A DNA stretch of 60,493 nucleotides from the NCBI GenBank assembly GCA_012800435.1, contig JAAZJH010000004.1, positions 1 through 60,493 of the forward strand, in the 5' to 3' direction. The notes under the pieces were generated by a model. It ran no database searches. It worked only from the letters and a program-made list of their open reading frames with translations, and had not been told where the DNA came from. Each line of letters opens with the position of its first letter. Position 1 is the stretch's first letter. Position numbers and translations under genes: made by a program. The stretch comes from Clostridiaceae bacterium (GTDB lineage Bacteria > Bacillota > Clostridia > Saccharofermentanales > DTU023). Shown here piece after piece: positions 2,484 to 35,553 of this stretch.

Positions 2484-3791
2484 ATGTCCGACAATAATCG
2501 CCGCGATGGCTATACCCCTATTCACTGCTCTTTTTGCGGCAAAACGGAAAAGCAAGTAAAGCAGATGGTTAAGGGGCCGGGCGTTTTTATCTGCAATGAA
2601 TGTGTTGCGCTTTGCGGTGAAATGCTCTCCGGCTACACGCCCGGATTTGACGAAAGCATGGCCGATATGCTTTCCGGAAGAAAGAATTTGCTGCTTCCGC
2701 GAGAGATTAAAGAGCGACTTGACGAATATGTCATCGGGCAGGATCTTGCCAAAAAAGTACTTGCCGTATCCGTATACAATCACTACAAACGTGTTTTTTC
2801 AGACCAAGCGGTGAAAGTAGACGAAGACGTTGAACTTGCCAAGACTAACATTATGCTCATCGGGCCGACAGGCTCCGGGAAAACGCTCCTTGCGCAAACG
2901 CTGGCACGTATTTTGGAAGTGCCTTTCGCTATCGCGGACGCTACAGCGTTGACGGAGGCGGGCTATGTTGGCGAAGACGTAGAAAATATCCTTCTTCGAT
3001 TGATTCAGAATGCCGATTATAACATCACGGCCGCTGAGTGCGGCATCATCTATATTGATGAGATCGACAAGATCGCCCGCAGGTCGGACAATCCCTCCAT
3101 TACGCGAGATGTTTCCGGCGAGGGCGTGCAGCAGGCACTGCTAAAGATTCTTGAAAGCACGGTGGCGAATGTTCCGCCGCAAGGTGGCCGCAAACATCCG
3201 CATCAGGAATTTATTCAAATCGACACGACGAATATTCTGTTCATCTTAGGAGGCTCCTTTGATGGTCTTGACAAAATAATCGCCAATCGCATCGGTGAGC
3301 AGTCAATGGGATTCGGCGCCGATATCGAGGGAACACGAAAACTGAAGAGCGAAGAGTTGTTCGCGCATCTGCTTCCGGAGGATCTGCTCCATTATGGCTT
3401 GATTCCTGAGTTTGTTGGCCGTGTTCCTGTGGTCGTGGCACTTACCGAACTTGACGAAGATGCCTTGGTGCGCATCCTGAAAGAACCGCGCAACGCTCTT
3501 TTAAAACAATATCGCAAGCTCTTACGCTATGACGATGTGGAGCTTTTCTTTGATGATGACGCCATTGCTGCCATCGCGAAGAAAGCGCTTGATTTGAAAA
3601 CAGGTGCCCGAGGTCTTCGTACCATTATAGAGGGACTGATGCTGGACATTATGTACGAGGCTCCCTCGCACGATGACAAAGCGCACACTATCCGCATCAC
3701 GGAATCGTGTGTGCTCGGAAAAGAGAAACCGAAGATTGAGCGCCAAGAAGCGATGGACGCACTTCCTGAACCGAAGAGCACCGGGGCATAG
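2484..3791 (+). CDS. clpX: ATP-dependent Clp protease ATP-binding subunit ClpX
   Basis: This 435-residue AAA+ unfoldase recognises tagged substrates and threads them into ClpP. An N-terminal C4 zinc-binding domain is seen (CSFCGK and CNEC pairs). It is followed by Walker A GPTGSGKT, pore loop GYVGED, Walker [10 protein letters not shown], and the ClpP-docking loop as MGF rather than the more usual IGF or LGF. The ATG at 2484 is chosen because GGAGG at 2473-2477 is six bases upstream. A TTG at 2478 would add only two residues and lies directly against the ribosome site. No convincing terminator follows before the kinase-like gene. Confidence 0.97.
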
Positions 3792-31670: not shown

Positions 31671-31973
31671 CACATCACACCATCATTCAGATGAAGCGCC
31701 AATCGAGAAAAATTCCGATTAGGCATGATCCAATCCGTGGCATACAATGTTCATAGTATGATTTGACGGTATAATTTTAGCGTATTTTTCTGAGAAGGCG
31801 TCTATGGCTCGTTGTCGACGTACGTAGAGTTGATGTGAGGGGATGATTGCATCACGCTAATGTCTCGGAATCAAGAATTTTTCGATCTAAGAGCCTAAGT
31901 ACAGTTCGACAGAGTGTTTCATGTCGAGGCTGTCTGTATCTGTCCGTCGGAAGACGAAGTCGGAGTTTTACAT
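31671..31973. other. intergenic region before an unrecognised gene
   Basis: About 300 bases. A TATAAT occurs at about 31769-31774 just after a TTGACG, but the two overlap too closely to form one promoter, so spacing options are weak. A GTG at 31914 could extend the next gene by 20 residues but lacks a ribosome site. Nothing else is recognised. Confidence 0.35.
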
Positions 31974-32981
31974 ATGCACAAAATCGGTCACAAACAGTCC
32001 TCTTACGCCGCGACGGATTATGATGCGGTTCGTTGTTATTTTCGTGATCTATCATCTTTTCAAGATTGGACATTAGGTGAATGTATTGTTGCCGAACGAG
32101 AAGGTCTTTTGGCTATCTATCGGGCGGAGGATCGTGATGGACTTCCTTTTTTGCTTTATGTCACACCAATCCGTGCATGGAGTAAAGAAGAGCGAATTCT
32201 CCAGCATATTAAGTGGGTGAATGACGCACTTGCGCATGGCTCTTTTCGTTACAATGCCTGTGAGCCGATGATCCAACAGCTTTCGTGGAAACGATCCGGC
32301 ATGTTCTTCTTTGGCATTACACCCGATCGCGGTTTGCGGCCTGTGATTGAAGCTGCGCCCTTCTCCAACCGCTCAAGTTTAATTCTTAATATGGTTTATG
32401 TCACAGCATTATTACGTTTTTTAGAGTGTGATGTATGGCCTTTCACGTGCAATGGCTTGAATAGAGAAAAATTGCTTGATAAGGCAGCTGCGTTGTCAGA
32501 TAGAGTCGCTCCGAGACTTCATAACGCCTCTGAAATATCGAAACGCTGGGAAAGTTTTTATCAGCGCAACGCGGAGAATGTGGCGCGAACCCACGATTTT
32601 ACGCCAGTTTTTTCGATAGGTGATTATCTTTCAAAATGTTTGGTGTATTGTTCGGAATGTGAGACCTTTTATCTTGAAGGTGCTTTTTCTTTTTCGCCGG
32701 GTACTCGCAGTGACGATCTTTGCAGTCTTTTATTTCTTTTTAGGAAGCAGTCCTCACAAAACAAACAGTATCTTGTTGATTTCTATTTTGATATGGATGT
32801 GCCGAATCAATTTTTTACGTATCTTTCCCATCGGCATATGACGAGCCTATTAGAGCAAATTGACGACAGCGAAAAAGGATCAAGGGAAGATCAAATTGCT
32901 CGACATGAACTGCGTTTATTTTCCGAGACACGAGAAGGTTTTCGAACGCCCGTGCCTGTCTGGTATAAACCTCTCGAATAG
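31974..32981 (+). CDS. unrecognised protein, possibly a degenerate phosphotransferase fold
   Basis: I do not recognise this 335-residue protein by name. The layout recalls aminoglycoside/choline kinase-like (APH) proteins: a mixed N-terminal part with a helix EERILQHIKWVNDALAHG, then a C-terminal segment FSIGDYLSKCLVY (D217) that resembles HGDxxxxNxLV. It is followed by an EGAFSFSPGTRSDDL stretch (D247, D248) that resembles the DFxxAxxGxxxDDL region. If so, the catalytic His and Asn and the metal-binding Asp are replaced, and the protein may be catalytically dead. ATG 31974 is chosen because GGAG at 31962-31965 lies eight bases upstream. It is soluble with no signal. The fold is inference. 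Confidence 0.5.
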   Translation: MHKIGHKQSSYAATDYDAVRCYFRDLSSFQDWTLGECIVAEREGLLAIYRAEDRDGLPFLLYVTPIRAWSKEERILQHIKWVNDALAHGSFRYNACEPMIQQLSWKRSGMFFFGITPDRGLRPVIEAAPFSNRSSLILNMVYVTALLRFLECDVWPFTCNGLNREKLLDKAAALSDRVAPRLHNASEISKRWESFYQRNAENVARTHDFTPVFSIGDYLSKCLVYCSECETFYLEGAFSFSPGTRSDDLCSLLFLFRKQSSQNKQYLVDFYFDMDVPNQFFTYLSHRHMTSLLEQIDDSEKGSREDQIARHELRLFSETREGFRTPVPVWYKPLE

Positions 32982-33332: not shown

Positions 33333-33824
33333 ATGAACGGTATTAAGTATTTCAGAAAAAAGAATCGGATGACACAAAGTACTCTGGCGAAGATGCTAGG
33401 AGTAACCCAGACGTCTGTTAGCCAGTGGGAGAGCGGACGGAATTTCCCGGATATCAAGAGGGCAAAGCAACTGGCAGATCTTTTCTCTGCATCTTTGGAT
33501 CAAATTCTAGGAACTGTCGAAATGCCGAAAAACGATCTGTTGCTGTCGCCAAGTGAAAGACGCATTATTTTGGAAAAAAGAGATGATCTTGACGAAGATG
33601 AGGTCGTTTTACTTGAACAAAAAATGCGCTTAATTGAACTAATGGATAAACTATCGCCACTTGCGCGTCAACGCGTAATTGACCGGGCGGAAATTTATTA
33701 TGAAGTTCAGTGTTGTGAGGCCGATAATGCGGCGAAGGAACAACAATTGTCATCCGTTCATGTATCGGCAGCTGATTCGACGTGCGAAGAGTCGTTAACG
33801 GAAGAAGTTGTCGCTGAAGATTAA
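33333..33824 (+). CDS. Cro/CI-type HTH transcriptional regulator
   Basis: This 163-residue protein starts with a clear HTH_3 (XRE) domain: residues 3-58, with MTQSTLAKMLGVTQTSVSQWESGRNFPD as the helix-turn-helix. A Leu/Glu-rich helical segment follows (about 70-125), probably for dimerisation. The tail is polar, Ser/Thr/Glu-rich, and likely disordered. There is no peptidase or sensor domain. GTAAGGAG precedes the ATG. The target is unknown; it may control itself through the upstream palindrome. It is followed by the promoter of the structured RNA before mnmA, which could be another target. Confidence 0.85.
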   Translation: MNGIKYFRKKNRMTQSTLAKMLGVTQTSVSQWESGRNFPDIKRAKQLADLFSASLDQILGTVEMPKNDLLLSPSERRIILEKRDDLDEDEVVLLEQKMRLIELMDKLSPLARQRVIDRAEIYYEVQCCEADNAAKEQQLSSVHVSAADSTCEESLTEEVVAED

Positions 33825-33897: not shown

Positions 33898-33926
33898 TTG
33901 ACAGGGTTAGCTTGTGATGGTAGTAT
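33898..33926 (+). promoter_or_regulatory. strong promoter of the structured RNA before mnmA
   Basis: A perfect TTGACA (33898-33903), a 17-base spacer, and TAGTAT (33921-33926). Transcription would begin near 33933, over 400 bases before the mnmA start. This is the best promoter match I found in the window. Confidence 0.75.
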
Positions 33927-33932
33927 AAAAAC

Positions 33933-34280
33933 ACCTCAAAAGACATCAGGCTGAACGGTCGCCGAATAAGAGTGATATGTTTCTGCGATGACTGGATGAG
34001 GATAAAAGCCTCGATAGACCGCATTCGGGCAGATAAGATCTCCGCAGCGATGGGTCGCTAACCCCTGTTTCACTTACTTTCGGCGGAGCATCTTACGGTA
34101 GAGCCCATGTGCCACAGCAGGATCTCAGACCGGATGTATTCAAGAAGACATCGGACTTCAAACCGGTCAGCGGTCGACAAACAAAGAGGCGAGGAAGGAG
34201 GCCGTACTTTGAAAGTACACCTCGAAGAGACGGGCAGCTAGCTCCGCAGTGTAGTATGACGCCGGAGACTGCCCGTTTCA
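33933..34280 (+). ncRNA. structured leader or noncoding RNA upstream of mnmA, unrecognised
   Basis: No protein frame is convincing here, yet stable stems are frequent: GAGG/CCTC (33998-34012); TAAGATCTCCGC (34034-34045) with GCGGAGCATCTTA (34083-34095); GACCGG (34128-34133) with CCGGTC (34163-34168); GAGG/CCTC around GTACTTT/AAAGTAC (34198-34223); and a last stem CGGGCAG (34231-34237) with CTGCCCG (34269-34275) enclosing CTCCG/CGGAG. CGGGCAG and CTCCGCAG occur twice (34025-34047 and 34231-34249), so alternative pairings are possible. It matches no riboswitch, tmRNA or RNase P RNA that I know. It could be a regulatory leader of mnmA or an independent RNA. Confidence 0.55.
34231..34278 (+). terminator. 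terminator-like compound hairpin just before mnmA
   Basis: CGGGCAG pairs with CTGCCCG, with an inner CTCCG/CGGAG stem, followed by TTTCATTT. The T-run is short. It ends six to ten bases before the first possible mnmA start. Confidence 0.6.
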
Positions 34281-34341
34281 TTTGATGAAATTTCCTCTCA
34301 AACGTACTCTTTTGCAGATATTAAGCATCTATCGTACAGAT

Positions 34342-35553
34342 ATGTCACAAGATTCGAAGAATGAAAAACAGAAAGTATTACTTGCCTTGTCCGGCGGTGT
34401 AGACAGTGTGGCGTCGGCCATTCTGTTAAAGCGTGTATACGAGGTTGAAACGGTGACGTTTCTAATGACCGGCAATATAGCGCAACAAGAAGAGCAAACG
34501 GCTAAAGCGTCGGAAGTTGCCCAAATGTTAGGGATTTCACATCATGTTCTGGATTTGACACAGCTTTTCCATGAACAGGTACTTCAACCTTTTCTTGACG
34601 CTTGGCGCTCAGGCAAGACTCCCAACCCCTGTGTCGTCTGTAATCCTCACGTTAAATTCAAGGCATTGATGACGTTAGCCTTCAAGTTAGATTGTGATTT
34701 TATCGCAACAGGACATTATGCGCGCGTAGGCAAAGGAAACAATTTCAGCGGTATTGAGATGAATTATTCGCCACCGCGACGCGATGTTAACGAATATGCC
34801 GTGAATGTTCCGGCCGGTGCACACTCTACTTCCGAGTACTCAGATGCTGTTGATCTCGTAAAAGTGAATAAGATGCAGAGAAGCGAGTCTCCGGTTTTTC
34901 TCTACCGTGCAGCCGATCCTCGACGTGATCAGAGCTATTTTATGTATCGACTGCCCCCCGAAGTACTGCGACGCGTCATTTTTCCGTTGGGCGGACTCAG
35001 CAAGGATGAGGCGCGCGCGATCGTAGCGGAAGAAGGGCTTAGCGCAGCGACGGAAGCGGACAGCCAAGATCTTTGTTTCCTTGGCGGCAAGCCACTTAGG
35101 GATTATCTCAGAGATCATGTCGCTTTAAACGAGCCGGGGCCTTTTCTAGATCTTCAGGGGCGCGCGATAGGTGAACACCGCGGCATTTGGCAGTTTACGA
35201 TCGGTCAGCGGCGTCGCCTCGGGGAGACATTCGGTCGACGAATGACAGTAGTGGCGCTCGATCCTGAGCGTCGTGCAGTCACTCTTGGTGACGAGTCTGA
35301 CGCTGTGATGGATGCCGTGATACTTGAAGATTGTTATTTCCCTTATGATATGCCTCAAAAATTCGATGCTACGGTGAAACTCCGTTCGCAGGGCATCCCG
35401 CTTCATGTACACGTCGAGAAAGTGTCTAACAAGGAGATTATGGCGCGTTTTGATGGGCCGGTTCGTCTGTCGTCGCCAGGGCAATCCGCGGTATTTTATG
35501 AAGATGATCGTCTGCTTGGCGGAGGCATCGTCACTCGCCTTCTTCGGTTGTAA
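34342..35553 (+). CDS. mnmA: tRNA-specific 2-thiouridylase MnmA
   Basis: This 403-residue enzyme thiolates U34 of Lys, Glu and Gln tRNAs. It has the PP-loop LLALSGGVDS, the first catalytic Cys in TPNPCVVCNPHVKFK, HYARV, the DQSYFMYRL motif, the second Cys in DSQDLCFLGG, and a C-terminal beta-barrel domain. An extra stretch of about 50 polar residues lies between HYARV and RAADPRRDQSYF, where other MnmA proteins have a short loop. ATG 34342 is chosen because it places the PP-loop about 12 residues in, as usual, but no ribosome site is visible. TTG 34282 or ATG 34285, next to the terminator hairpin, would add about 20 residues. Confidence 0.92.
   Translation: MSQDSKNEKQKVLLALSGGVDSVASAILLKRVYEVETVTFLMTGNIAQQEEQTAKASEVAQMLGISHHVLDLTQLFHEQVLQPFLDAWRSGKTPNPCVVCNPHVKFKALMTLAFKLDCDFIATGHYARVGKGNNFSGIEMNYSPPRRDVNEYAVNVPAGAHSTSEYSDAVDLVKVNKMQRSESPVFLYRAADPRRDQSYFMYRLPPEVLRRVIFPLGGLSKDEARAIVAEEGLSAATEADSQDLCFLGGKPLRDYLRDHVALNEPGPFLDLQGRAIGEHRGIWQFTIGQRRRLGETFGRRMTVVALDPERRAVTLGDESDAVMDAVILEDCYFPYDMPQKFDATVKLRSQGIPLHVHVEKVSNKEIMARFDGPVRLSSPGQSAVFYEDDRLLGGGIVTRLLRL

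Follow-up and report, generated by a model that had tools for sequence, protein, structure and literature searches.

Working along the forward strand of the window—the whole stretch of DNA analysed, 60,493 nucleotides from an uncultured digester-type Clostridia bacterium—we come to an intergenic stretch that runs from a promoter to mnmA (34342..35553, + strand; Pfam PF03054, 9.8e-53), with the gene for an XRE-type helix-turn-helix (HTH) regulator upstream (33333..33824, + strand; Pfam HTH_3, 4.5e-13) and mnmA, veg and ispE downstream. The start of mnmA is either the ATG at 34342 or a TTG at 34282. Further upstream lies an ORF of 355 aa (31914-32981) with no Pfam match; in three related genomes (G001, G002, G009) a related ORF terminates immediately 5' of either the XRE gene or mnmA.

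The promoter (33898..33926, + strand) consists of TTGACA at 33898, a 17-nt spacer and TAGTAT at 33921, with TG before the -10 element; it lies where an earlier, sequence-only reading of this DNA had placed it. The chance expectation for one such site in the whole window is 0.9, so that the single site is by itself at chance level; the matching arrangement is, however, found in 22/22 homologues of the RNA described below, with TTGACA (TTGACG in one) at the matching place, a spacer that is nearly always 17 nt, and a fair -10. From this promoter we predict the 5' end of an RNA of ~350 nt (33933..34285, + strand; 260-420 nt across the RNA family), which is supported by full-length blastn homologues, by covariance-model homologues and by its folding: relative to shuffled sequence the window segment has a z-score of -2.3, with a mean of -3.5 for the whole RNA over 22 homologues, upholding the earlier description of some 350 structured bases. 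We conclude that the gene upstream of mnmA encodes a real, conserved RNA of an undescribed family.

The sequence-only reading could not match the segment to a known class, and the Rfam search it proposed agrees: the covariance models of Rfam 15, T-box and riboswitches included, give no match to it at gathering threshold, and at E-values up to 10 only two chance matches to snoRNAs. The literature searched holds no description of an RNA of this type. In length and strength of promoter, and in nothing else, the RNA would fit a divergent copy of a housekeeping species (RNase P, tmRNA, 6S or SRP RNA); as copies of all four are located elsewhere in the same genome (G000), identity with any of them is refuted, and, with the segment also lacking an Rfam match, we consider the chance of a divergent copy to be negligible.

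Plain blastn against 39 related genomes recovers the RNA in 14 genomes (its own included): two homologues are nearly full-length, at 85% identity (G011, G003), and eleven more match through just ~40-120 bases of the 3' end, with a common core of GGAGG-n-GTAC-loop-GTAC-ACCTC-nnn-GAAACGGGCAG. A search with the hairpin pattern finds 18 genomes within its own family (38 genomes), and when the 3' module is cast as a covariance model and searched for across 188 genomes of the order, these 18 reappear and four additional, diverged members come to light, two of them from genus g4 and two from family f3, giving 22 members in all—the window and 21 other genomes, every one of the same order. Because most homologues were also picked up with the hairpin pattern, the invariance of the hairpin within family f1 is partly by construction. 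For the first covariance model, three g6 sequences had the long loop of their terminator trimmed by hand; its hits were subsequently realigned using the loci in unmodified form. Extending the search to 391 genomes of the class yielded no additional member, the matches inspected being coding sequence or ordinary terminators; weak covariance-model matches in f2, in G007 and in other families of the class were, where inspected, protein genes or ordinary terminators without a Shine-Dalgarno hairpin, and two pattern matches in Actinobacteria (Kitasatospora, Acidimicrobiia) were treated as chance. The RNA was not found in the viral contigs, phages and plasmids searched. Named records that carry it include Mageeibacillus, Fastidiosipila and MAGs of the 'Clostridiales bacterium DTU023' type; since the genomes are draft MAGs, some absences of the RNA may be gaps. 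With its 22 genomes in one order of Clostridia, this adds one more family to the undescribed portion of bacterial noncoding RNA.

The 3' end of the RNA forms a compact module, the main feature of the locus and one overlooked by the sequence-only reading. A Shine-Dalgarno sequence, GGAGG (34197..34201, + strand; within AGGAAGGAGG), is sequestered in a hairpin, GAGG-CC-GTAC-TTTGAAA-GTAC-A-CCTC (34198..34223, + strand), with a predicted pairing probability of 0.97 in the window sequence; in all members its GAGG pairs with CCUC at a probability of 0.95-1.0, and in genus g4 CTGTA/TACAG stands in place of GTAC/GTAC. The loop of the hairpin holds the start codon of a tiny, ten-codon ORF (34209..34241, + strand; TTG AAA GTA CAC CTC GAA GAG ACG GGC AGC TAG, encoding MKVHLEETGS and a stop), which runs into the 5' arm of a terminator-like helix, GAGACGGGCAG / CTGCCCGTTTC (34227..34279, + strand). 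All helix cells (100%) are paired in the 22 homologues, and three pairs carry changes on both sides. The terminator-like end hairpin previously noted at this position is thus real and covaries, but its U tract, TTTCATTT, is short and broken, and a generic terminator scan misses the helix.

When shuffling is limited to the loop, the linker and the bases after it, the helices being held fixed, the ORF would be expected in 6.4 of the 22 homologues and is retained in 20, which, the members being related, do not amount to 22 independent events; the combination of Shine-Dalgarno sequence, start and in-frame stop accordingly exceeds chance, on fewer independent events than the count suggests. It spans 6-11 codons among the homologues, beginning at the same loop position with TTG in f1 and ATG in f3, and in most of them stops just past the 5' arm of the terminator (in f1 outside g4, a single base past GGCAG or GGCGG). 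Lineages differ in whether TGA, TAG or TAA serves as the stop, and TGG is never seen in its place. Where the linker is one base shorter, in f3, a stop is located in the new frame; in G023 the ORF has taken up an in-frame insertion of 3 nt; and in g4, with its CUGUA/UACAG hairpin, the stop has moved up, before the terminator arm. The ORF is missing in two members of genus g6: G046, where it is one base shorter and its frame broken, and G018. In the latter (locus L077, G018:C10, ~2960-3040) hairpin and terminator are intact, and this is the sole member with its stop lost; its sister G044 has TAA. That Shine-Dalgarno sequence, start, stop and terminal helix interlock, and that this arrangement is conserved, is apparent in the sequences themselves: ~100 bases combine a ribosome-binding site, start codon, stop codon and terminator, and lend themselves to direct testing.

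The peptide fares differently. Beyond the constraint of pairing it is unconserved (MKVHLEETGS, MKVHLVGTGR, MIVQPR, MKVHLRRRAD), and codons outside the helices vary freely. This bears upon the proposal that the RNA is a dual-function RNA or mRNA making a short peptide, which might serve to signal to the XRE regulator. A conserved ORF and a co-occurring regulator gene would suit such a proposal; set against these are the freedom of the peptide to vary outside its paired codons, its reduction to six amino acids in g4 and the Pfam matches of the regulator, which are to HTH domains only, and we think it very unlikely.

Upstream of this module the RNA is variable, and the stability of this 5' domain exceeds that of shuffled sequence moderately (mean z -1.9). 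Its clearest element is a stem, Px, whose 5' arm TAAGATCTCCGC (34034..34045, + strand) pairs with the 3' arm GCGGAGCATCTTA (34083..34095, + strand); in the window it encloses the hairpin GGGTCGCTAACCC (34052..34064, + strand), which in relatives keeps a similar loop on a changing stem. The enclosed hairpin conforms to GGGUnGCUAACCC or UGGnGCUUAACCA, and CUGnAAGC often precedes it. From clade to clade the two arms of Px change in sequence, yet within each clade they match: their mean duplex energy is -10.2, whereas permuting arms between clades gives -5.0, with 0/5000 permutations as low, a result that overstates the case because the arms were hand-picked for pairing.

In this domain and the 3' module together the sequence-only reading had seen the makings of a two-state switch, in repeats said to lie 206 bases apart. 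The repeats exist—CGGGCAG at 34026 and 34231, CTCCGCAG at 34040 and 34242—at spacings of 205 and 202, and the segments proposed to choose between them, GCGGAG at 34083 and CTGCCCG at 34269, are where they were placed. The two mutually exclusive folds built upon them, one forming the terminator and the other freeing it, do not hold up: the second CTCCGCAG is confined to the window genome, the two relatives nearest to it lacking it, and an exact copy of the upstream CGGGCAG is carried by 3/22 members, namely the window genome and those same two relatives, which share one ancestry. GCGGAG at 34083 instead belongs to stem Px, pairing with 34040, and is kept in relatives through compensating changes. 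The covariation asked for appears in this stem and in the terminal helix; the duplicate arms on which exclusive terminator and antiterminator folds would depend are confined to three close relatives or to one genome.

One further motif of the 5' domain, ACCUC, is complementary to part of Shine-Dalgarno sequences and is present upstream in 15/22 members, where chance would give 3.4, and frequently opens the RNA at its 5' end. This favours a plain trans-acting small RNA, of the type that binds Shine-Dalgarno sequences as an antisense, in which the Shine-Dalgarno-like hairpin and short ORF would be structural by-products; the lack of peptide conservation, and the fact that much of the ORF sequence is fixed by the helices alone, also fit. 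Such an account sits uneasily with start and stop codons conserved at largely unpaired sites (TAG, TGA or TAA, never TGG) and with a stop that keeps to the frame despite changes in linker length; we regard it as rather unlikely, if the most serious of the alternatives.

The genes that follow the RNA are not constant. Only in genera g1 and g3 is mnmA found 3' of it; elsewhere there is veg-ispE (G024, G018), ispE (G022), an SsuA-like transporter (G046, G044), or a convergent gene, this being ispE in G017 and G023 and another gene in G016. In G046 and G044 (loci L075 and L076) the SsuA-like ABC transporter operon lies between the RNA and veg-ispE, and it is absent from the other two of the four g6 genomes. 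In f3 (L141 in G184, L142 in G185) the RNA precedes a TetR gene and ABC exporter operon with a promoter-like sequence of its own, whose TTGACA lies ~120 bases (L141) and 2 bases (L142) past the terminal helix of the RNA. Conversely, three g1 genomes retain mnmA without the RNA: G001 and G009, from which the XRE gene is missing as well, and G002, which does have it. As the next genes differ, or are convergent in three genomes, and mnmA persists without the RNA, mnmA appears to be a neighbour rather than the target. The RNA is not kept upstream of mnmA across the homologues, and it is probably not a leader or switch of that gene; the suggestion that it senses a tRNA or thiolation state on behalf of mnmA is not supported, mnmA being next in two genera only and the exclusive folds unconserved. 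A structured RNA upstream of a gene need not be that gene's switch.

A more specific version of this idea makes the RNA a cis attenuator of the mnmA operon. The GAA/AAA codons of its tiny ORF are decoded by tRNAs whose U34 is a thiolation site of MnmA, and their translation, or a stall upon them, would determine whether transcription terminates or reads through into mnmA. The attractions of this version are the same-strand mnmA downstream of all g1 and g3 copies, the Lys/Glu codons in the ORF, a geometry compatible with attenuation, and a promoter-like site between RNA and mnmA that is clear in three genomes only (G010, G008, G004; P 0.00-0.03 in shuffles), the remaining genomes having none beyond chance as judged by the same shuffles. 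Copies of the RNA in g4, g5, g6 and f3 have no mnmA downstream, the Glu/Lys codons vary (codon 6 is GGA, GTA, AGA or GCA, and the g4 peptide is MIVQPR), and G001, G002 and G009 keep mnmA without the RNA; we judge the attenuator improbable. Read-through from the RNA could still matter in g1 and g3, where mnmA follows closely.

Taken together, the absence of an Rfam match, the conserved promoter and terminal helix, and downstream genes that are unconserved and sometimes convergent indicate that the RNA is, very probably, a standalone gene with its own promoter and 3' end, both independent of neighbouring genes in so far as sequence can tell. The second guess of the sequence-only reading, a standalone noncoding RNA outside the known classes, is the one that these data support.

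Its one recurrent companion is the XRE regulator. Within the family of the window genome an orthologue is present in 18/20 RNA-positive and 1/18 RNA-negative genomes (Fisher 1.9e-7, uncorrected for phylogeny); it adjoins the RNA in 13 genomes, and in the other five, G006 plus four genomes of g3, it lies on a different contig. Among RNA-bearing genomes, those of g4 and f3 yielded no close orthologue, and no shared operator for the protein is visible by eye upstream of the RNAs. From this co-occurrence we infer that the regulator is a functional partner of the RNA, as its regulator or its target.

The explanation we find best, and to which we would give roughly an even chance, is of an independent small RNA of an undescribed family with a 3' end gated by ribosomes; the gating itself we place at about the same level. 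The RNA would be transcribed from a vegetative promoter of its own and terminated at its own helix, the variable structured 5' domain probably acting in trans; the ACCUC segments of that domain resemble Shine-Dalgarno-pairing sequences. By default the hairpin would hide the Shine-Dalgarno sequence and the terminator helix would form. Were a ribosome to enter at the start codon in the loop, the hairpin would have to unfold and, in most homologues, the ribosome would advance into the terminator's 5' arm; because of this geometry, translation would be expected to alter termination or stability of the RNA, the selected property being the act of translation and not the peptide. The poor U tract, the g4 ORF that ends ahead of the terminator arm and the two g6 members without an ORF are points against such a gate. 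More speculatively, and with less confidence than in the gate, the free-standing RNA may 'sense' ribosome availability or initiation by way of a dummy mini-ORF running into its own terminator, with the XRE protein as dedicated regulator; we know of no described RNA family of such a build. A gate that proves functional would amount to a naturally occurring reporter of translation initiation, independent of any particular peptide or downstream gene.

Among known systems, riboswitches and T-boxes are likewise structured RNAs 5' of a gene with a terminator-like helix; the RNA described here differs in having no Rfam match, no constant downstream gene and no conserved exclusive folds. With tmRNA it shares the form of a standalone structured RNA with a tiny ORF inside, but has no tRNA-like part, and the true tmRNA of the genome is encoded elsewhere. 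In the leader-peptide transcription attenuators of erm, cat, vmlR and the amino-acid operons, a short ORF with its own Shine-Dalgarno sequence likewise lies beside a terminator, whose formation a ribosome on the ORF would prevent; our RNA, by contrast, is free-standing, the genes downstream of it are not conserved, neither regulatory codons nor a peptide are kept, and a long structured domain comes ahead of the ORF. Finally, the dual-function small RNAs of Gram-positive bacteria, such as RNAIII and SR1, are discrete structured RNAs of 200-500 nt that bear an ORF and Shine-Dalgarno-like or anti-Shine-Dalgarno segments, as does the RNA predicted here; the difference is that here start, frame and stop are conserved, and the peptide is not.
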